The translations under genes and the position numbers were made by a program. Below, piece after piece: positions 1,844-31,520 of a stretch of DNA of 46,433 bases. The stretch is from the NCBI GenBank assembly GCA_007693325.1, contig REDW01000055.1, positions 1 through 46,433 on the forward strand. The letters run 5' to 3'. Positions within the stretch are counted from its first letter, which is position 1. Each line of letters starts with the position of its first letter. The stretch is from Spirochaetaceae bacterium (lineage in GTDB: Bacteria > Spirochaetota > Spirochaetia > DSM-27196 > PWMO01). The notes under the pieces are model-generated. The model was not told where the DNA came from. It saw nothing but the letters and a program-made list of their open reading frames with translations, and made no database searches.

Positions 1844-4201
1844 CTACCGCGTTTGAAAGATCTTTTCAACGACCTCGTCCATGGTACGTACCGCGTGGAA
1901 CGTTATGCCGCGTTTGATATGCTGCGGAATGTCTTCAAGATCGCGCTCGTTCTCTTTGGGGATAATGAGCTCTTTGATCTTGTAGCGGCGCGCGGCAATG
2001 GTCTTTTCCTTGAGTCCGCCAACCGGCAGAACCGTACCCACCAATGAGAGCTCACCGGTCATCGCCAGACGGGTGCGCACGCGTTTGTCGGTTGCCAGTG
2101 ACAACAGGCTGGCCGCCATCGTGATTCCGGCCGACGGTCCGTCCTTGGGGGTAGCACCGGCGGGGATGTGCAGATGGATCTGGCGCTGTTCAAAGTATTC
2201 TGCCGGCACCTGGAAGCGCTCGGCTATATGGCGCACCCAGGTGTAGGCGATGCGCGCCGACTCCTGCATTACATCGCCCATCTGGCCGGTTATGTGAAAG
2301 CCTTCCTTGCCCGGATTGCTGACCGCTTCAATCACCAGCACGTCGCCGCCGTGTGGAGTCCACGCCAGGCCGGTGGCGGTACCGGCAACCGTGCTGCGCC
2401 TCTCCAGGTCATCTTTGAAGACACGCTTGCCCAGCAGGTCATCGAGTTGCTCGACCTCGATCGTAAACGGTGCCTGCGCTTGCTCCAGTACCACGCGGTG
2501 GGCGAGTTTGCGGTGGATGCGGTCCAGGGCTTTTTCGAGGTTACGGACTCCGGCCTCGCGCGCGTAACCGTTGGCAATCTGCAGCAGACACTTCTTGCTG
2601 TACTTGACGTCGCGTTTGCCGAGCCCGGCGCGCTGCAGCGATTTTGGAAGCAGATACTTGCGTGCGATGGCAACCTTTTCGTCGTCGATATAACCCGACA
2701 GGCGGATGATCTCCATGCGGTCACGCAGCGGCGCCGGGATGCTGTCCAGCGTGTTGGCGGTGGTGATGAAGAAGATGTTGGAGATGTCAAACGGCAGATC
2801 GAGGTAGTGATCGCGAAACGCCACGTTCTGCTCGGGATCGAGCACTTCGAGCAGCGCCGATGATGGGTCTCCCTGGAACGACGCCCCGAGCTTGTCGATT
2901 TCGTCGATCATGAATACCGGATCGTTGGTCTTGACCGCCTTCAGTCCCTGAATGATCTTGCCGGGCATTGCGCCGACGTAGGTGCGCCGGTGCCCCTTGA
3001 TCTCGGCTTCGTCGCGCATACCGCCCACCGAGAATCGGAAGAACTGCTTGCCGAGCGCCCGGGCAATCGACTTTCCCACCGATGTCTTACCAACTCCGGG
3101 AGGCCCAACCAGGCAGACTATCGACCCTTTGGCGTCCTGTTTCAGCTTGCGCACCGACAGGAACTCGAGTATGCGCTGCTTGACGTCCTCCAGCCCGTAG
3201 TGGTCGGCGTTCAGTATGCGTTCGGCGCGTCGGATGTCGATCTGTTCGGGTTTAGGATCGTTCCAGGGCAGATTGATGATGGTGTCGAGGTAGTTGCGTG
3301 TTACCTGAAACTCCGGCGAACTCGGCTCGGTCAAAGAGAACTTCTCGAGTTCGTGTTCGACCTGTTCGCGTACTTCGGTTGAGAGCTGCAGTTTTTCGAT
3401 TTCGTCGCGGAAGCGCTGGTGCTCAGAGCTCTTTGCGTCCACCGGCATGCCGAGTTCCTGCTTGATGGCCTTGAGTTCCTCTTTGAGAAAGTATTCGCGC
3501 TGGCTTTTCTCGATCTTCTCGTTGATCTGTTGCTGGATCTTCTTCTGCAGGCGCAAGAGCTCCTGTTCGCGCTTGATGTGAATCAACACCTGCTCCATTC
3601 GGCTCTTGACATCGGAGGTTTCCAGAATCCGCTGCTGGTCCTCACGATCGATGTTGAGAATTGAGCAGGAGAAGTCTGCAATCTTTCCCGGGTGGTCGAT
3701 GTTGACCATATTCAGCCGCATTTCTTCGGAAAACAGCGGATTGTTTTCGGAGACCTGCTTCATCTCGCCAATCAGCGAGCGCGTCAGCGCCTTGATTTCG
3801 TCTCCGCTTGCCGAATCGTAGTTGTCCTCGAGGTATTCAACGGCTACCGCGATTGGACCGCTGCGGTTCAGCACCTTCTTGATGCGGAAGCGCTTCAGCG
3901 TTGAGACAAATATGTTGAGGCCTCCGTCGGGCAGATTGATCTTCTTCATGATCTTGGCCACCGTTCCAACCTGATGCAGGTCGTCGCCGGTAGGCTCCTG
4001 GGTATCTTCATCGCGCAGCAGGGTAAGCCCGATCATGCTGTCGCCCGCGAGCGACTGCTCGATTACCGCAATATCCTCCTGTGAAGTGAGCATCATGGGG
4101 GTGAAGATCCCCGGAAAGATCGGCTTACTCGATAACGGGATAACAAGAAGCTTGGCCGGCAGAATCTGGTCAGCCGGAATGATTGCGTGTGGACTCGACA
4201 T
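1844..4201 (-). CDS. lon: ATP-dependent protease La (Lon)
   Basis: This is a 785-residue Lon, the normal length for bacterial LonA. Order of parts: N-terminal substrate-binding LON domain (about residues 15-215), a long helical segment, the AAA+ module with Walker A GPPGVGKTS at 366-374 and Walker B VFMIDEIDK, then the serine protease domain. The catalytic Ser lies in PKDGPSAGITMAA and the catalytic Lys in GGLKEKTIAARR. It degrades damaged and regulatory cytoplasmic proteins. Start: the ATG at 4201 has AAGGTGA a few bases upstream and matches the family start; the longer frame up to 4303 would run into recO. It is the first gene of an operon with the carboxypeptidase and U32 genes, and is divergent from recO. 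Confidence 0.97.
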   Translation of the reverse strand: MSSPHAIIPADQILPAKLLVIPLSSKPIFPGIFTPMMLTSQEDIAVIEQSLAGDSMIGLTLLRDEDTQEPTGDDLHQVGTVAKIMKKINLPDGGLNIFVSTLKRFRIKKVLNRSGPIAVAVEYLEDNYDSASGDEIKALTRSLIGEMKQVSENNPLFSEEMRLNMVNIDHPGKIADFSCSILNIDREDQQRILETSDVKSRMEQVLIHIKREQELLRLQKKIQQQINEKIEKSQREYFLKEELKAIKQELGMPVDAKSSEHQRFRDEIEKLQLSTEVREQVEHELEKFSLTEPSSPEFQVTRNYLDTIINLPWNDPKPEQIDIRRAERILNADHYGLEDVKQRILEFLSVRKLKQDAKGSIVCLVGPPGVGKTSVGKSIARALGKQFFRFSVGGMRDEAEIKGHRRTYVGAMPGKIIQGLKAVKTNDPVFMIDEIDKLGASFQGDPSSALLEVLDPEQNVAFRDHYLDLPFDISNIFFITTANTLDSIPAPLRDRMEIIRLSGYIDDEKVAIARKYLLPKSLQRAGLGKRDVKYSKKCLLQIANGYAREAGVRNLEKALDRIHRKLAHRVVLEQAQAPFTIEVEQLDDLLGKRVFKDDLERRSTVAGTATGLAWTPHGGDVLVIEAVSNPGKEGFHITGQMGDVMQESARIAYTWVRHIAERFQVPAEYFEQRQIHLHIPAGATPKDGPSAGITMAASLLSLATDKRVRTRLAMTGELSLVGTVLPVGGLKEKTIAARRYKIKELIIPKENERDLEDIPQHIKRGITFHAVRTMDEVVEKIFQTR

Positions 4202-4237
4202 TGTTTCACCTTGTGAGTTAGATAGCTGTGTACTTGG

Positions 4238-4270
4238 TATAATATGTCTATGGCCTGTGAGTGCAGTCAA
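4238..4270. promoter_or_regulatory. divergent lon / recO promoter region
   Basis: On the plus strand TATAAT at 4238-4243 is preceded by TGG, giving an extended -10 (TGnTATAAT) that could drive recO without a good -35. On the minus strand TTGACT (complement of 4265-4270) and CATATT (complement of 4241-4246) are 18 bp apart and could drive lon, so the two promoters overlap. No CIRCE-type HrcA operator was found. Confidence 0.5.
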
Positions 4271-4284
4271 GCGGCAAACCGACA

Positions 4285-5037
4285 ATGAACCGTAACAGTG
4301 CAACCGACGTCATTATTCTGAAGAACTCGCGTATCGGAGATATCCACAAGGGCGTGACCATGCTGACACCGCAGCAGGGGCTGCTGTCCGCAATCGCGCA
4401 CGGGGCCTACTCCCGGAAGGGAAAACTGCGCGGCGTCACCAATCCGTTCTGCTACGGACACTGTTATCTCTACACTGATCCGGTCAAGAAGAGCATCAAG
4501 ATCACCGATCTCAGCGTGAATGACTTCTTTTCCGGGCTGCGTGAATCGGTAACGCGGTTCTACAGCGCGTCATTGTGGGCCGAGCTGGTGCTCAAGACCT
4601 TTGGCGGAGGAGCTGAGAGCGACCGACTGTTTGCGCTGCTGTTGGACGCGCTGCGGGCTCTCGATAGCGCTACCGATTTCCGCCCGGTCAGCATCCAGTT
4701 TTTGTGGCGTTACCTGGAGACCGCCGGACTACAGCCGGAACTCGATGCGTGCGCCAACTGCGGAGCCGGGTTGGCGGCAGATTCAAGGCGCTACTACGAC
4801 CCGCGGCAGACCGGTTTTGTCTGCGTCAACTGCGCCCAGCCCGGCGCCGCCGCTGCGCTGGGCCGAGCAGCGGCGGACTACCTGCAGTACAGCGGGAGGC
4901 TGGAGTTCTCAGCGGCGCTGAAGATCGGACTCGAAGATGCGGCGCTGCAGAACGCCCGAACCGTACTCTACCGGTTGATCCAGGACGTGGCCGAGACGCC
5001 GCTTAATTCGCTGCGTATCGGCGGTGGGATACTGTGA
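4285..5037 (+). CDS. recO: DNA repair protein RecO
   Basis: This 250-residue protein fits RecO, which loads RecA onto SSB-coated single-stranded DNA together with RecR (RecFOR pathway). The N-terminal OB-fold part begins near DVIILKNSRIGDIHKGVTMLT, followed by a helical domain. A zinc-ribbon pair is visible in the C-terminal half: CANCG and, about 25 residues later, CVNCA, as in many RecO proteins. The start was placed at the ATG at 4285; an in-frame GTG at 4261 would add eight residues with no family support, and neither start has a strong ribosome binding site. It converges on the RNase D gene, with 10 nt between the two stops. Confidence 0.85.
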   Translation: MNRNSATDVIILKNSRIGDIHKGVTMLTPQQGLLSAIAHGAYSRKGKLRGVTNPFCYGHCYLYTDPVKKSIKITDLSVNDFFSGLRESVTRFYSASLWAELVLKTFGGGAESDRLFALLLDALRALDSATDFRPVSIQFLWRYLETAGLQPELDACANCGAGLAADSRRYYDPRQTGFVCVNCAQPGAAAALGRAAADYLQYSGRLEFSAALKIGLEDAALQNARTVLYRLIQDVAETPLNSLRIGGGIL

Positions 5038-5047
5038 TGACGCGGTT

Positions 5048-5911
5048 TTACTCATCCAACAGCGCTTCGATATCGGCAACCATCTTGCGGTGGATGGATT
5101 GTGGTACTCGCGGGTTGACCTCCAGCGCAGCGGCCTGCATCCGATTGGCGGCAATCTGAAACAGATGTCGCTTGGCAAGCAGCGTATCCGGCGGCAGGTC
5201 GGCCTCGCGCGCGTATCCGTCGCGGATCTCGTAGATGCGCTCAAAGCGCTGCCTGGCTGATGCTGAGAGATTGCGGAATTCTCCCGATCGGAACAGCCGC
5301 GGCCTGCGATTGATATCGGGGGGCTTGTTCTGCAGCATCAGATTCTTCAACAGGTAGGCGTCGATGAGTCCTGCGGCGCTGAGCTCGGCCAGCAGGTGAT
5401 CCTTGAGGGCAAAAAGATGCGCCACGTCGGACATGGCGTACTCAACCGCGTCGGCTGCCAGGGGGCGGGTGGTCCAGTTGTAACGCTGAAAGCGCGACTT
5501 CTTCTCGATAGTGATGCCCAACGCGTGGTTGAGTACCGAACCCAGATCGCGCCTGGCGTACTGCAGCAGATCAACCGCGGGCTTCAGATCGACAATTGAA
5601 TGAATCCGCGTTTCGAGCGTTTTGAACAGCAGCGACTGGTCGCTCAGCGAGTCGTACATGATCTTGAGTACGCCGCGATCCTCAAAAAAGGCTTTGAGCA
5701 GCGGACGGTCGATCTCCAGCGGATCAACTGCGGTAAGCTGTTCTCCGTCATAGAGTTGAATCAGGCAGAGCCGCTCCCCGTAGACGTGCAGGTTGAACTC
5801 GCCTTCGATATCGAGTGCAATCACCGCGACATCACGCTGGGAAAGCGATTGCTGCAGCGCCTGCAGCTGCGTATTGCCAGTGATCATACGGTAGTTCATG
5901 GGCTGCATCAT
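5048..5911 (-). CDS. rnd: ribonuclease D (DEDDy 3'-5' exonuclease with HRDC domain)
   Basis: RNase D trims 3' ends of tRNA precursors and other small RNAs. The exonuclease domain shows motif I ALDIEGE (Asp, Glu), motif II around IMYDSLSD (Asp) and motif III YAMSDVAHLFAL (Tyr-x3-Asp), which places it in the DEDDy group. The C-terminal third (RQRFERIYEIRDGYARE onwards) fits an HRDC nucleic-acid-binding domain. At 287 residues it is shorter than E. coli RNase D (about 375), probably with one HRDC domain rather than two. The ATG at 5911 has GGGAGG 11 nt upstream; ATGs at 5908 and 5899 are alternatives. It is divergent from the pyrimidine phosphorylase gene. Confidence 0.88.
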   Translation of the reverse strand: MMQPMNYRMITGNTQLQALQQSLSQRDVAVIALDIEGEFNLHVYGERLCLIQLYDGEQLTAVDPLEIDRPLLKAFFEDRGVLKIMYDSLSDQSLLFKTLETRIHSIVDLKPAVDLLQYARRDLGSVLNHALGITIEKKSRFQRYNWTTRPLAADAVEYAMSDVAHLFALKDHLLAELSAAGLIDAYLLKNLMLQNKPPDINRRPRLFRSGEFRNLSASARQRFERIYEIRDGYAREADLPPDTLLAKRHLFQIAANRMQAAALEVNPRVPQSIHRKMVADIEALLDE

Positions 5912-26725: not shown

Positions 26726-27418
26726 TTAGTGGCGCTCCTGCCGCGACGGTAAACGTGATTCCACCAGTTCGGTGAACCAGTGTGTCACCGTAGCAATGAC
26801 GTGTTCTACCTGGCCGATGCGTGGAATCATAAAAACAAACAATCGGTCCTGTTCGGGTACCAGCGCCACGTGGCGCAACGGGCCGGGTTCACCCATCTGT
26901 TCGCGCAACTGCTCCAACCGAGCCCGGATCTGTTGATCCTGGTAATAGAAAAAAAAGGTCAAGCCGCCCCAGTCGATGGTCTCACGGGTCAGGATGTCTT
27001 CATTTTCAATGCTGGCACCGGCAAACCGTGAGTAGCCCTTTTCTATCAGGTGGCCCTCCTTGAGCACTCCGGCGGCTTTTGGAGAAAGGTGATACGCCAG
27101 AAAGAGCCGGTCGAACCTGCGGATCAGTCGAGATACCGGATAATAGAGCCACGACTGCCGCGGCAGCATAGTGATGGTAGCGTCCAGTCGTCTGATGTAA
27201 CGGTTTTTGTGCGGTACGAAGTTGGCGTGGTATCCGGTGAGACCGCCGATGTTGGTGAACTGCTGATCCTTAGGCTGTATTACGCGGGTTATGGCGTCGA
27301 ACGCGGAGAGATAGATACGGCGGTTACGTCGCTTGCCCCACGAGTAGCCCAGCGAGATCAGAATTGTGACGGCGATAAAAAGGTAGAATAGCGGTTGCTG
27401 TACTATGTCGGTCTGCAT
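26726..27418 (-). CDS. membrane-anchored protein of unknown function, NIGGL paralogue A
   Basis: A 230-residue protein with one N-terminal membrane helix (PLFYLFIAVTILISLGYSWG) followed by basic residues, so the bulk is probably cytoplasmic. The soluble part shares a clear signature with the gene at 30563-31204: QPKDQQFTNIGGLTGYHANF against QPTDTSYTNIGGLVGYNFAY, RLDATITMLPRQSWLYYP against RLDGTITTLPRQSLLYYP, and SLxP followed by GH. I do not recognise a named family. It starts 29 nt after the ArsA-type ATPase gene (AGAGGA upstream of the ATG at 27418). Since both copies flank the cstA-ATPase genes, a shared membrane function is likely. Confidence 0.8.
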   Translation of the reverse strand: MQTDIVQQPLFYLFIAVTILISLGYSWGKRRNRRIYLSAFDAITRVIQPKDQQFTNIGGLTGYHANFVPHKNRYIRRLDATITMLPRQSWLYYPVSRLIRRFDRLFLAYHLSPKAAGVLKEGHLIEKGYSRFAGASIENEDILTRETIDWGGLTFFFYYQDQQIRARLEQLREQMGEPGPLRHVALVPEQDRLFVFMIPRIGQVEHVIATVTHWFTELVESRLPSRQERH

Positions 27419-27446
27419 CGGTGAGTGGTTCCTCTTGGTTGATCGA

Positions 27447-28364
27447 TCAGCGGAAGGGCGCAGTTACGTCAAAATCAAACGCGTAGGCGCTCTCACGCAC
27501 GTAATCATGCATAGGAACACGTACAAGATCAACTCCCGTGGTTCCGTTGAGCAATCGCTGCTCGACCTCCTGGGCAACATCGGAGAGGCTATCCTGATAC
27601 TTGTTGTTGTAGGCCACGTGCAGGCCGAGTTGCAGATCCTTGAATCCGGTAATGATGCGTTGAGACTCGCGCAACGAAAGGTAATCGGGGTTGAAGACTA
27701 CGCATAGCTTGGTGTTATCGCTCTTGAGAATCTTGTAAACCCCGGCATAGCGTTTCCACAGTTCATCCAGCTTCTTGATGACCCGGTCGTCTTCTTCCTG
27801 GTACGCCAGACGCACTCCCTTTTCTATGTACTGTCCACTGATATTGTGAATCGTATAGCGCTTCTCGAGAATCTGTTTCCTGATTCGGCGCAGTCGATCA
27901 ATCCAGGTAACGGTGATATTGGGTAGCGCCAGTATGCGCAGCGTGAGCCCGGTTGGAGGCGTGTCGAAGACCAGGTAATCGAAGCCGGTTTCGCTGCGGA
28001 AGATCTCTTCCATAATCGTCAGCGAGGCGTACTCCTCTACACCCGGTGAGTAGCGCAACACTTTGAAGTAGAGGTCCATATTGAAGGCGCGGGTGTAACT
28101 GTAGACCTCGTTCAGAATATCGATATTCTGCGCGATATACGCCGAGGCAGCCTTGTCCAGGTCGGCTTCCTGCAGGTAGAGATTCTTGGTGAATTTCTTC
28201 TTCTTATGGCCCAGCTGCAAGTTGTATATGTCACCAAGATTGTGCGCTGGATCAAACGAGACCGCCAGAACCTTGAAACCCCGTTCGGAGAGTTGCCAGG
28301 CTGCCGCAGCCGCGAGGGTGGATTTGCCCACTCCGCCTTTACCTGTGAAAAAAAGTGCTTTCAT
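27447..28364 (-). CDS. ArsA/Get3-family ATPase
   Basis: A 305-residue soluble ATPase of the deviant-Walker SIMIBI type. GKGGVGKST at residues 8-16 carries the signature Lys. FDPAHNLGD at 37-45 matches switch I of ArsA/Get3, and DTPPTG at 134-139 is switch II. It has a single domain, like Get3 and unlike the tandem ArsA of arsenic plasmids, and no arsR, arsB or arsC is near. The CxxC zinc site of eukaryotic Get3 is absent. Get3 relatives handle tail-anchored membrane proteins or act as chaperones. The ATG at 28364 has AAGGAT upstream, overlapping the stop of the small gene before it. Confidence 0.9.
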   Translation of the reverse strand: MKALFFTGKGGVGKSTLAAAAAWQLSERGFKVLAVSFDPAHNLGDIYNLQLGHKKKKFTKNLYLQEADLDKAASAYIAQNIDILNEVYSYTRAFNMDLYFKVLRYSPGVEEYASLTIMEEIFRSETGFDYLVFDTPPTGLTLRILALPNITVTWIDRLRRIRKQILEKRYTIHNISGQYIEKGVRLAYQEEDDRVIKKLDELWKRYAGVYKILKSDNTKLCVVFNPDYLSLRESQRIITGFKDLQLGLHVAYNNKYQDSLSDVAQEVEQRLLNGTTGVDLVRVPMHDYVRESAYAFDFDVTAPFR

Positions 28365-28374
28365 GAGGGTATCC

Positions 28375-28710
28375 TTAGGTTACGTCGAAGCAACCGGCGA
28401 TTTCCGCCAACGCATCGTCGGCGTTTTCAGCGCGGCGGTTTGCGACCTTGAGCTCGTGCTCCATGAGCGGCAGCAGCTCGGCCGAGATGAACGAGGGCGG
28501 CGCCGGCAACCCGGTAAACGAGCCCATCAGCAACAGGACAAACATATTCTCAAGCTCTCTGACCTCGCACTCGGTAAGCCCGACCGCCTTATTGCGGTGC
28601 GCCTGGTCGGTACTGGAGAAGAACGCCCTGAGGAAGCCGCGGGTCGATGCAACAAGGCGCCCGAAGGCGCCTTGTTGTTGATTGTGTCCTGATCGGTCCT
28701 GACCGCTCAC
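28375..28710 (-). CDS. small helical protein linked to CstA and the ArsA-type ATPase
   Basis: A 111-residue protein beginning at a GTG that overlaps the cstA stop (GTGA). The core ENMFVLLLMGSFTGLPAPPSF followed by ISAELLPLMEHELKVANRRAE resembles, from memory, small proteins annotated as cory-CC-star in actinobacteria. Those also sit beside cstA and an ArsA-type ATPase and end in Cys-Cys. Here the C-terminus has a single Cys (AGCFDVT). That family name is unverified. No signal peptide is present. The first 35 codons include a perfect hairpin at 28650-28677. No in-frame start codon exists between the hairpin and Met55, so the GTG start is the best choice. Confidence 0.7.
   Translation of the reverse strand: MSGQDRSGHNQQQGAFGRLVASTRGFLRAFFSSTDQAHRNKAVGLTECEVRELENMFVLLLMGSFTGLPAPPSFISAELLPLMEHELKVANRRAENADDALAEIAGCFDVT
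28650..28677 (-). repeat. perfect 12-bp stem with C(UUCG)G tetraloop at the cstA / small-gene junction
   Basis: On the minus-strand transcript CAACAAGGCGCC pairs fully with GGCGCCTTGTTG around the loop TTCG, an exceptionally stable tetraloop. It lies 30 nt after the cstA stop and inside the first codons of the next gene. The end of the stem is T-rich (TTGTTG) but no longer T-run follows, so it could be a partial terminator or an RNase-stop that sets a higher cstA level than the genes downstream. Confidence 0.7.
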
Positions 28711-30431
28711 GACTGTATTTCTGCCGAAGCGGGCAGGTCCTTGGTCTTGAAGAAGTCAAAGATGAACAGGAAGTTCATCAGCAGCATGATCACAACGATG
28801 ACCATAACCGTCCAGCCGGTTGCCGGTGCGGAAGCAATAGTTGCCGGCAGTGGCACTGCAGCGTACCAGATCATAGCCGCAGTCACGGTAATCCAGAGCC
28901 CCATAGCCGGTATATAGGCCACGGTGGCCTTGGCTTTGAGCCGCTTGGTGACCCACGCGGTTCCGGTCAGAAGCGCAATTGACGCGATCAGCTGGTTGGC
29001 ACTGCCGAACGAGGGCCAGAGCATCGCAAATGTGCCGCTGTAACCCAGCCAGATTCCAAGCGCCGCGGGAATCAGCGAGGCAACCCAGCGGTTGGTAAAG
29101 AACCTGTAGACGCCTTCCGCCTTGTCCTTGATCGGCAGGAACATCTCTGCCAGGCAGTAGCGTGCCAGGCGGTTGGTGGTATCCAGCGTAGTCATGGCAA
29201 ACGATGAGACCCACATGCCGGCGATGATCGCCAGGAATTGCCGTGGAATGAAGCCGAGCCAGGTTACCGAGACCATCTCGGCCCAGGTTTCAGAGAACAT
29301 CGGCGCACCGCCGAGGCCGGCGGCTTCCGCCTGCGGATTATAGCTGGTTCCCCACTCGGCAAAGGCCACCGGATGACCGGCCTCGGCCAGAACGGTCATG
29401 CCGAAACCGGCTACCGCGATAACAACGATTGTAGAGAGAAAGCCCTCAACCAGCATGACGCCGTAGCCGATCGGCAGACCGGACTTCTCGTTGGTGAGCT
29501 GCTTGGAGGTGGTCCCCGAGGCTACCAGCGAGTGGAATCCCGACAGCGAGCCGCAGGCAATCACCAACGGAACCACCGGCCAGAACGGGGTGGGTTTGCC
29601 GCCAACCACAACCGCAGAGAACGAGGTGAACGCCGGCGCGGTGAAGCCGCCGAAGGCGAAAAGCGCTGCAAGACCGCCCACGATCAGACCAGCGTAGAGC
29701 AGAAACGCGTTCAGATAATCACGCGGCTGCAGCAGTACGTTGACCGGAATGGCGGCGGCCAGGATGATGTAGAAGAACATGGCCAGGAACCAGGTGCCGC
29801 GTCCCAGCGTAAGAGGAACCGCTCCGCCGAGGTAGATCACCAGGATCAGCATGGCAACACCAATAAGCGACGATACGACAAACGGCAGCTTGGTGCGGTA
29901 CATCAGAATGCCGAGAATGACCGCTGCTACAAGCAGGTAGGCGGTTGCCGCCGGGACCGCGGGATTGGCCATGAACATGCCACCGAGCACCGCGCTGAAG
30001 GCTGCCACTACCAGGACCAGCAGAAAGAACACCAGGAAGTAAAACGCCTTGCCGGTGCGCTTGGTCAGCAGGTCCGCGGCAACAAACTGGATCGACTTGC
30101 CGTCGTAACGCACCGACGCCATAACGGCCAGGTAGTCGTGCACCGCGCCGATGAAGATATTGCCAAACCACACCCAGAGAAGCGCCGGTACCCATCCCCA
30201 GGCCATCGCCAGAACCGGTCCGATGATGGGTGCCGCCCCTGCTACAGATGCAAAGTGATGCCCAAACAGAACACTGTTACGCGCGGGTACAAAGTCCACC
30301 CCGTCGTACAGTCTGTGCGCGGGCGTCTGGATGCTGTTATCGGCCTTGACCGTCGCCTCCAGCTTTCGCCCGTAGGTGAGGTACAGTACCACGTACAGTA
30401 TACCTCCAACGATTGCGACAATTGCTGTCAT
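28707..30431 (-). CDS. cstA: CstA-type (carbon starvation) transporter
   Basis: A 574-residue polytopic membrane protein with about 14-16 hydrophobic segments. The CstA N-terminal pattern is clear: YGRKLEATVKAD, then DGVDFVPARNSVLFGHHFASVAGAAPIIGP, whose central FGHHF and GAAPIIGP are highly conserved. CstA proteins and the related BtsT import pyruvate or small peptides during starvation. It is shorter than E. coli CstA (about 700). The ATG at 30431 has GGGAGGAG upstream. A sigma70-like promoter lies 50-80 nt before it. The small gene, the ArsA-type ATPase and paralogue A follow in the same operon. Confidence 0.93.
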   Translation of the reverse strand: MTAIVAIVGGILYVVLYLTYGRKLEATVKADNSIQTPAHRLYDGVDFVPARNSVLFGHHFASVAGAAPIIGPVLAMAWGWVPALLWVWFGNIFIGAVHDYLAVMASVRYDGKSIQFVAADLLTKRTGKAFYFLVFFLLVLVVAAFSAVLGGMFMANPAVPAATAYLLVAAVILGILMYRTKLPFVVSSLIGVAMLILVIYLGGAVPLTLGRGTWFLAMFFYIILAAAIPVNVLLQPRDYLNAFLLYAGLIVGGLAALFAFGGFTAPAFTSFSAVVVGGKPTPFWPVVPLVIACGSLSGFHSLVASGTTSKQLTNEKSGLPIGYGVMLVEGFLSTIVVIAVAGFGMTVLAEAGHPVAFAEWGTSYNPQAEAAGLGGAPMFSETWAEMVSVTWLGFIPRQFLAIIAGMWVSSFAMTTLDTTNRLARYCLAEMFLPIKDKAEGVYRFFTNRWVASLIPAALGIWLGYSGTFAMLWPSFGSANQLIASIALLTGTAWVTKRLKAKATVAYIPAMGLWITVTAAMIWYAAVPLPATIASAPATGWTVMVIVVIMLLMNFLFIFDFFKTKDLPASAEIQS

Positions 30432-30479
30432 AGTTCACTCCTCCCGTTGAGAATAACTAAACAAATATCGATTCGCCCT

Positions 30480-30508
30480 AGCGTACCCCTGAATTCGGCT
30501 GCTGTCAA
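30480..30508 (-). promoter_or_regulatory. candidate cstA promoter
   Basis: The minus strand reads TTGACA (complement of 30503-30508), a 17-bp spacer, then TACGCT (complement of 30480-30485). The -35 is perfect and the -10 is weak, as expected for a promoter that needs an activator; no CRP-type site was identified. Confidence 0.4.
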
Positions 30509-30562
30509 ACAAAAGTTGCGTACGGCGCTCATGTTCTCTCTCCCCGGCGCCGGCGGCAGAAG

Positions 30563-31204
30563 TTAGAGCCGTGAGGCCACACAGTCGGCGAGTACACCAT
30601 GCAGCTCGTTGATTTGCGTCTCGAGTTCCGCGCTTCCCGGGCAGAAGCGCAGCGATATATATCCATTACTTCCGTAGTAGCCGATATAGCGCAGGCTGGG
30701 ACCGCCCGACAGTCGCGCTAGAATTGAAAGCAGCAGGCTGCGCACCAGCGGGTTGTAGCTGAAAAGTAGAAACCGGAGCTCTCCGTGCTCGACGGTCTCG
30801 GACCGCATCGACGTGTCATCGTCGATCGGGATCCAGCCGCGACCAAACTGACGTTCTTCGACGATATGCCCCTCTCCGGGCGCCAGAGAATAGCAGAACA
30901 GCGTCAGTATGAGGTTGTCTTCACGGCCCATGAAACGGGCTATGGGATAGTAGAGCAAAGACTGACGTGGAAGGGTGGTGATTGTGCCGTCGAGGCGGTG
31001 GAACGCAGCCGAATCGAGTTGATAGGCAAAGTTGTACCCTACCAGACCGCCAATGTTGGTATACGAGGTGTCTGTTGGCTGAAAAACGCGCTCAGTGGCG
31101 GCGCACGTTTCTAACAGCAACTGCTGATTTGTGCGCACGCCACGCCGCCAGCCAAGCATCATCGCTGCAGCAAGCCCGAAGATGAGGTAGGCCAGCAGAC
31201 TCAT
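30563..31204 (-). CDS. membrane-anchored protein of unknown function, NIGGL paralogue B
   Basis: A 213-residue protein with one N-terminal membrane helix (LLAYLIFGLAAAMMLGW) and a basic stop-transfer sequence, then a soluble domain. It matches paralogue A (26726-27418) in TNIGGLVGYNF, RLDGTITTLPRQSLLYYP, LAPGEGHIVEE, a Gly-Pro-Ser-Leu-Arg segment and the final D-x-V-x-SRL. It follows the small MIP18/NifU-like gene by 3 nt and precedes cstA by 131 nt. There is no signal peptidase site, so it is membrane-tethered facing the cytoplasm. The function is unknown. Confidence 0.8.
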   Translation of the reverse strand: MSLLAYLIFGLAAAMMLGWRRGVRTNQQLLLETCAATERVFQPTDTSYTNIGGLVGYNFAYQLDSAAFHRLDGTITTLPRQSLLYYPIARFMGREDNLILTLFCYSLAPGEGHIVEERQFGRGWIPIDDDTSMRSETVEHGELRFLLFSYNPLVRSLLLSILARLSGGPSLRYIGYYGSNGYISLRFCPGSAELETQINELHGVLADCVASRL

Positions 31205-31207
31205 GCG

Positions 31208-31492
31208 CTATACCAGCTCTATCCTAAGTTCGGGGAACTCCGCTTCAAATTCTTCTACCAGCCGGCGGCGGATGCCGGAAATCACCACCGAGGCGATGCC
31301 GACGCACGCCATACACGATGGCTGGTGCGACAGGAAGTCGGCAAACACGTAGAGCTCCTGCTTCTCCGCGTTGTAGCGCACGCGTTCCACCACGCCCAGC
31401 CGCGCAATTGGTAGTCCACTCTCGGGATCCTTGACCCGCTGCAGCACATCTTCGATCTTCTGTTGCATTTCCTGATCCATGATGAGGATCAT
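31208..31492 (-). CDS. small MIP18/DUF59-like protein with NifU-like CxxC
   Basis: A 94-residue protein. The first half (VLQRVKDPESGLPIARLGVV) matches the start of MIP18/DUF59 proteins that help deliver Fe-S clusters. The second half carries PSCMACVGIASVVISGIRRRL, where a CxxC followed by a helix recalls the NifU C-terminal scaffold. A role in Fe-S or metal handling for the neighbouring cstA/ATPase genes is inference. The ATG at 31492 has AAGGGG 6 nt upstream. A second ATG at 31480 is possible if the promoter overlapping the first ATG is used. The paralogue B gene begins 3 nt after its stop. Confidence 0.7.
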   Translation of the reverse strand: MILIMDQEMQQKIEDVLQRVKDPESGLPIARLGVVERVRYNAEKQELYVFADFLSHQPSCMACVGIASVVISGIRRRLVEEFEAEFPELRIELV

Positions 31493-31520
31493 TATGTGCC
31501 CCTTGAATCGAAGCTGTCAA
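31491..31520 (-). promoter_or_regulatory. promoter overlapping the start of the MIP18-like gene
   Basis: The minus strand reads TTGACA (complement of 31515-31520), 18 bp, then CATAAT (complement of 31491-31496). The last two bases of the -10 are the first two of the ATG at 31492, so transcripts from here would begin inside that codon region and favour the ATG at 31480. Confidence 0.4.

Follow-up and report, generated by a model that had tools for sequence, protein, structure and literature searches.

This study analyzed a six-gene cluster at positions 26,726 to 31,492 of a 46,433-nucleotide contig (REDW01000055.1, assembly GCA_007693325.1; this whole stretch is referred to as the window) from a Spirochaetaceae bacterium with a genome of 3.47 Mb. 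An initial annotation made from the DNA letters had described six minus-strand genes with overlaps or short gaps, and all six open reading frames (ORFs) were borne out at the coordinates it gave. Read along the minus strand, the cluster begins with a small MIP18/DUF59-like (FeS_assembly_P) protein (31208..31492), which matched PF01883 marginally (E 7e-5; 23.4 bits against a gathering score of 23.5) and whose likely start is an internal ATG at 31480, matching its relatives. It is followed by NIGGL-A (30563..31204), which has one N-terminal transmembrane helix and a predicted cytosolic alpha/beta domain, and by the multi-span transporter CstA (28707..30431; 574 aa), whose identity is beyond doubt (PF02554, E 3.9e-124). 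The next two genes encode CstX (28375..28710), a small helical protein of 111 aa matching the cory-CC-star family NF041419 (E 2.4e-5), and a single-domain ATPase of the Get3/ArsA family (27447..28364; 305 aa), which scored 169.6 bits with TIGR00345 (TRC40/GET3/ArsA; cut-off 135) and 1e-50 with PF02374. The last gene encodes NIGGL-B (26726..27418), a member of the same family as NIGGL-A, with one N-terminal transmembrane helix and a cytosolic domain for which an AlphaFold model predicted the fold of CCDC47. The cstA stop and the cstX start overlap by 4 bases, NIGGL-A and cstA are separated by 131 bases, and the remaining intergenic gaps are 3, 10, and 28 bases.

The core of this cluster is already known, and the term "undescribed system" used in the initial annotation does not hold for it. 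In 2010, Castillo and Saier reported 26 CstA-ArsA associations, 24 of them with CstX; they named cstA, cstX, arsA, and cstY, found that CstA, CstX, and ArsA had coevolved, and proposed that they are coupled (PMC2963123). In that gene set, as in the window, cstA adjoins cstX and arsA on one strand, and ArsA is a single-domain protein (approximately 300 aa) with no ars genes beside it. The two sets differ in that CstY, a protein of approximately 210 aa with one transmembrane helix, was found in five archaea only (PMC2963123), whereas the Spirochaetota unit adds one or two NIGGL genes and a MIP18-like gene encoding a CxxC motif. Judged solely by size and the single transmembrane helix, the archaeal CstY may be the same protein as NIGGL. 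The tiny helical protein, which the initial annotation had likened to a neighbor of cstA and an ArsA-type ATPase in actinobacteria, was recognized as cory-CC-star. NF041419 was the sole curated family matched by CstX, below its 80-bit cut-off, and it matched all 12 aligned CstX members, weakly in every case (best 2e-7). On a plasmid of Cytobacillus spongiae (locus L131, positions 2459-5900), CstA, a 95-aa hypothetical protein, cory-CC-star, and an ArsA ATPase are encoded in this order. By position and neighbors, cory-CC-star was taken to be the CstX of Castillo and Saier. The CstX proteins have an invariant core (E-x-x-E-x-E-N-x-F, G, and G-x-P-x-P) and a moderately hydrophobic stretch. CstX belongs to no Pfam family, and its low-confidence model of two helices (pLDDT 70.5) yielded no fold match. 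The new elements are therefore the members with a predicted CCDC47 fold and the MIP18-like members in Spirochaetota.

According to the initial annotation, its proposal would fall if the genes were not neighbors in related genomes; this check did not refute it, and the gene order proved to be conserved. A search of the genomes of 84,980 species with NIGGL as the sole query yielded 35 loci, and 32 of these carried cstA-cstX-arsA-NIGGL in that order on one strand; the remaining three were interrupted by contig ends. The MIP18-like gene was next in 32 of the 35. The relatives found belonged to Spirochaetota (Gracilinema, Rectinema, metagenome-assembled genomes [MAGs] labelled Treponema, and others). 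When the distance to NIGGL was determined, cstA was located within 5 kb in 67 of 79 cases, and the same count was obtained for arsA. A search with NIGGL-B only found it in 19 of 61 relatives; the order cstA-cstX-arsA-NIGGL-B recurred repeatedly in their neighborhoods, and NIGGL-A and the MIP18-like gene were placed either ahead of cstA or past NIGGL-B. The recurrence of this order in tens of genomes is far beyond chance, and the six genes are conserved as a unit. Among 296 Spirochaetota genomes, CstX was present in 13, NIGGL in 17, and both in 10, with co-occurrence across six families (Fisher p 4e-12, uncorrected for kinship).

Several variants of the arrangement were identified. Two genomes carried cstA-cstX-arsA without an adjoining NIGGL gene. 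In two distant genomes, NIGGL was divergent from cstA and both arsA and cstX were absent (L081, 1390-2031; L082, 7699-8340), which suggests that NIGGL is tied to CstA itself; in both, a small ORF of approximately 100 aa lies between NIGGL and cstA. Some relatives seem to carry two cstA genes in the region. One locus (L052, 8975-12949) comprised cstA-cstX-arsA-NIGGL-B and then, where the contig ends, the start of a further cstA; on a different contig (L051, 1-2633), the order was cstA, the MIP18-like gene, and NIGGL-A.

The profile searches assigned neither NIGGL protein to a curated family above threshold. The two copies are genuinely homologous (31% identity, E 2e-26), as had been claimed. 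In the phylogenetic tree, the NIGGL-A clade was supported at 99/97 and the NIGGL-B clade at 100/100, with some long branches and an unsure deep order; this topology suggests that the two are old paralogues within this order and that NIGGL-B is the arsA-side copy. Hydropathy analysis revealed one membrane helix at the N terminus with a KRRNRR stretch after it, and by the positive-inside rule the domain should therefore face the cytosol. We modeled NIGGL-B with AlphaFold from an alignment of 34 bacterial sequences, without templates, and the model was of high quality (pLDDT 91.5, pTM 0.86). The fold prediction covers NIGGL-B, and NIGGL-A is linked to it through the common family profile.

The model was compared with 350,542 PDB chains by using Foldseek. 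The only confident matches were 7tm3_4 (E 2.1e-8), 9i78_4 (1.4e-7), and 6w6l_7 (1.5e-3); after a gap, the next match was at 0.085. All three were identified by sequence search as CCDC47 chains from endoplasmic reticulum (ER) translocons. CCDC47 is a subunit of the PAT complex of the multipass translocon, with which human and fungal cells build membrane proteins of several spans. VIA-align superposed the model on them with Z scores of 17.3, 15.6, and 11.9, respectively, over 190-215 residues, the transmembrane helix included. The first structural neighbor other than CCDC47 was TtfA (PDB 6t84; Z 9.7), 7.6 Z below the best CCDC47 row, and type III secretion chaperones and YbjN were at Z 4-7. The domain that had been described as unknown is thus predicted, at least in NIGGL-B, to have the CCDC47 fold, and the likeness of the membrane helix and cytosolic domain to CCDC47 extends over 213-215 aligned residues.

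The Pfam profile of CCDC47 (PF07946) was run across the 61 relatives. Of the 16 genomes with NIGGL-B, 15 gave a match to that gene, always below the cut-off and each time starting at profile position 7. In the 45 genomes without NIGGL-B, any match was found in four only, at other parts of the profile. The single-copy type of NIGGL was matched in 3 of 34 cases (best 0.018), and the CCDC47 signal in the sequence is therefore mainly that of the NIGGL-B type. A GxxxN motif at the cytosolic exit of the membrane helix was found in 73 of 75 NIGGL proteins and also in human (IIGKNKNSR) and Chaetomium (IGASLNRR) CCDC47. On the basis of the predicted fold, the Pfam ranking, and this motif, homology between NIGGL and CCDC47 is probable.

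The ATPase contains the P-loop GKGGVGKS and the motifs DPAHN and DTPPTG. At the metal site, it reads SPGVEE, whereas Escherichia coli ArsA carries a metal cysteine (SPCTEE) and archaeal Get3 proteins read SPGIDE or SPGTDE; PG(T/V/I/N)EE was present at this site in 59 of 60 relatives of the ATPase. The protein has one cysteine overall (Cys221), its relatives have 0-4, and a CxxC motif occurred in 1 of the 60. The profile of arsenical ArsA (TIGR04291) gave 99 bits versus 650. In these residues, the ATPase resembles Get3 at the position where arsenical ArsA has its metal cysteine. It shares the P-loop, DPAHN, DTPPTG, and a site of the PG-x-EE type with Get3/TRC40 and archaeal Get3; it lacks the zinc-binding CxxC of Get3 sensu stricto, and its gene, unlike that of Get3, sits with cstA. 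The two ATPase domains and metal-site cysteines of the arsenical pump ATPase ArsA are both absent. The initial annotation had stated that no arsenic genes are present. This remains correct for the surroundings of the cluster, where no ars genes were found. A separate contig of the genome (C110; L157, 2217-9359) carries a putative ars operon, judged by eye, with Acr3-like and ArsP-like permeases, two ArsR-like proteins, an ArsC-like protein, an ArsD-like ORF, and a 625-aa ArsA with two domains (SPCTTE and SPCTEE). An arsenic role for the ATPase of the cst cluster was rejected in view of its metal-site residues and this separate cluster. Two genomes have an additional ArsA-family gene upstream of cstA and divergent from it (L048, 2485-3465; L049, 4227-5156), and the ATPase there may be a heterodimer.

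The module is most likely either a dedicated assembly or chaperone system or a stable accessory complex for CstA, and the suggestion in the initial annotation that the genes "insert, assemble or regulate CstA" was judged the most plausible class of function. Within this class, we tentatively favor a dedicated biogenesis and assembly module, a reading that we place slightly short of an even chance. The observed basis of this proposal comprises the gene set, its order and conservation, the predicted fold of NIGGL-B, and the Get3-like residues of the ATPase. NIGGL-A and NIGGL-B, each with a single span and a cytosolic domain of the predicted CCDC47 fold, would sit by CstA in the membrane and bind it. 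They may hold or guide the CstA helices while CstA is being inserted or assembled, a role like that of CCDC47 in the multipass translocon of the ER. CstX would be a small adaptor connecting the Get3-like ATPase, and the ATPase would perform ATP-driven capture and release as a chaperone rather than as the motor of an arsenite pump. The MIP18-like protein may contribute a metal-, iron-sulfur (Fe-S)-, or thiol-dependent step through its CxxC motif. In a broader version, which we regard as rather unlikely, the NIGGL proteins would be bacterial homologues of CCDC47 that form, with the Get3-type ATPase and CstX, a client-dedicated chaperone for one multi-span protein; the PAT part of the ER multipass translocon would then have a prokaryotic relative, perhaps its ancestor, in this system, and CstY would be the same protein as NIGGL.

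Several results weigh against the biogenesis reading. The best CCDC47 profile score among the 61 relatives was 18.9 bits, and that of NIGGL-B in the window was 14.6, both below the gathering cut-off of 27.7. The NIGGL profiles matched no PDB sequence, and hhalign of NIGGL against human CCDC47 gave a nonsignificant probability of 0.4-2%. The C-terminal latch helices, ribosome-binding tail, and coiled coil of CCDC47 are missing in NIGGL. TtfA, the second structural neighbor, is a lasting transporter subunit and not a known insertion factor. CstA was present in 166 of the 296 Spirochaetota genomes and CstX in just 13; most CstA proteins therefore manage without the module, which would be a minority add-on. 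Orphan NIGGL genes far from cstA were also found in four spirochaete genomes of one family (L083, 7998-8639; L085, 8165-8788; L093, 8113-8739; L094, 7713-8333). In the two of these read in detail, the neighbors were folK and mcsA-mcsB-clpC. The orphans suggest another client or a general role.

The differences from CCDC47 also bear on how far the comparison with the ER machinery can be taken. Chaetomium CCDC47 was docked as residues 76-370, 371-417, and 417-447, with the latch comprising 371-447 (PMC12572126). NIGGL aligns to residues 76-371 of this protein and ends at a position corresponding to approximately residue 371 (Chaetomium) or 401 (mammal). The latch helices place CCDC47 between the ribosome and Sec61, and NIGGL, which ends where the latch begins, should therefore, in contrast to CCDC47, leave Sec61 unblocked at the ribosome. 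CCDC47 has a luminal N-terminal domain, whereas NIGGL starts at its membrane helix and has none; NIGGL is also bacterial and encoded in an operon with CstA, unlike CCDC47. NIGGL was not classified as a PAT subunit, given the missing latch and luminal domain and the subthreshold sequence similarity. Pfam detected no Asterix, the PAT partner of CCDC47, in this set. PAT complex components have been stated to be lacking in prokaryotes (PMC9630114), and in 2026 the complex was stated to have no obvious bacterial homologues (PMC13261788). In the literature that we searched, no homologue of CCDC47 in bacteria was described, CCDC47 was not linked to CstA, and no paper connected it with TtfA.

The strongest rival to the biogenesis module is a stable transporter complex, in which the ATPase would act through CstX to energize or gate uptake by CstA and NIGGL would be a TtfA-like accessory protein. 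This reading, which we consider possible although somewhat doubtful, extends the 2010 proposal and draws on the coevolution and coupling reported then (PMC2963123). TtfA, an accessory of MmpL3 in mycobacteria, is needed for MmpL3 transport and binds MmpL3 (PMC6593404). It resembles NIGGL in having one N-terminal transmembrane helix, a cytosolic domain of related fold, and a multi-span transporter as its partner, and it is the next best fold match; furthermore, some relatives apparently carry two cstA genes with one type of NIGGL next to each. However, the partner of TtfA is an MmpL transporter and the neighbor of NIGGL is CstA, the likeness is one of fold only, and its Z score is well below that of CCDC47 (9.7 versus 17.3). 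Transporters of the CstA family elsewhere have been described as ion-coupled symporters, and the ATPase is absent there; NCBIfam designates E. coli CstA a pyruvate/proton symporter, both of which argue against an energizing ATPase. The biogenesis and stable-complex readings both predict physical contact; they differ in that the former predicts a change in the amount and folding of CstA and the latter a change in transport only.

The CCDC47 likeness could also be convergent, or the fold could be a very generic one that TtfA, type III secretion chaperones, and YbjN have as well; the likeness would then be functionally uninformative, and the cluster would be an ordinary transporter operon. The Z scores of the type III chaperones and YbjN and the lack of a significant CCDC47 sequence match are consistent with this view. 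We consider it improbable, since the match takes in the entire domain together with the membrane helix, the best row lies well above every other fold, and the Pfam CCDC47 profile singles out the NIGGL-B gene genome-wide. Finally, the MIP18-like CxxC protein and the P-loop ATPase might deliver a metal or Fe-S cofactor or sense redox status and thereby tune CstA. The CxxC motif was present in 40 of 41 MIP18-like relatives in the cluster, and carriers of the Nbp35/ApbC type, also P-loop ATPases, belong to the superfamily of the ATPase described here. The ATPase nevertheless lacks the cluster-binding CxxC of ApbC/Nbp35, as its cysteine counts and those of its relatives indicate, and the MIP18-like gene was missing, by hidden Markov model search, from some clusters; such a metal module is thus highly improbable.

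In the ER, the PAT complex acts as a central chaperone for membrane proteins with several spans. A bacterial protein of the CCDC47 fold with genetic ties to a single transporter and a single Get3-like ATPase would represent a prokaryotic relative of the PAT machinery, and the cluster would provide a small, defined system for a direct test of how a CCDC47 domain acts on a multi-span protein. It would also provide a concrete hypothesis for the 15-year-old puzzle of CstA, CstX, and ArsA. The predicted structural link between NIGGL and CCDC47 would be a finding of specialist value.

A sigma-70-like promoter match (TTGACA-18-CATAAT, 11/12; 31491..31520, minus strand) lies just before the first gene; it is a consensus match only, and such matches were no commoner across the whole region than in shuffled sequences. 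The plasmid search with NIGGL found none. The whole cluster was present in one MAG labelled Acidobacteria (L127); NIGGL was absent from the other Acidobacteriota (0 of 246 genomes), and this contig is therefore either the product of an isolated transfer or a piece that was misbinned. On two haloarchaeal plasmids, a single-domain ArsA-family ATPase is paired with a major facilitator superfamily (MFS) transporter (L132, 5001-7353; L133, 5001-7339).

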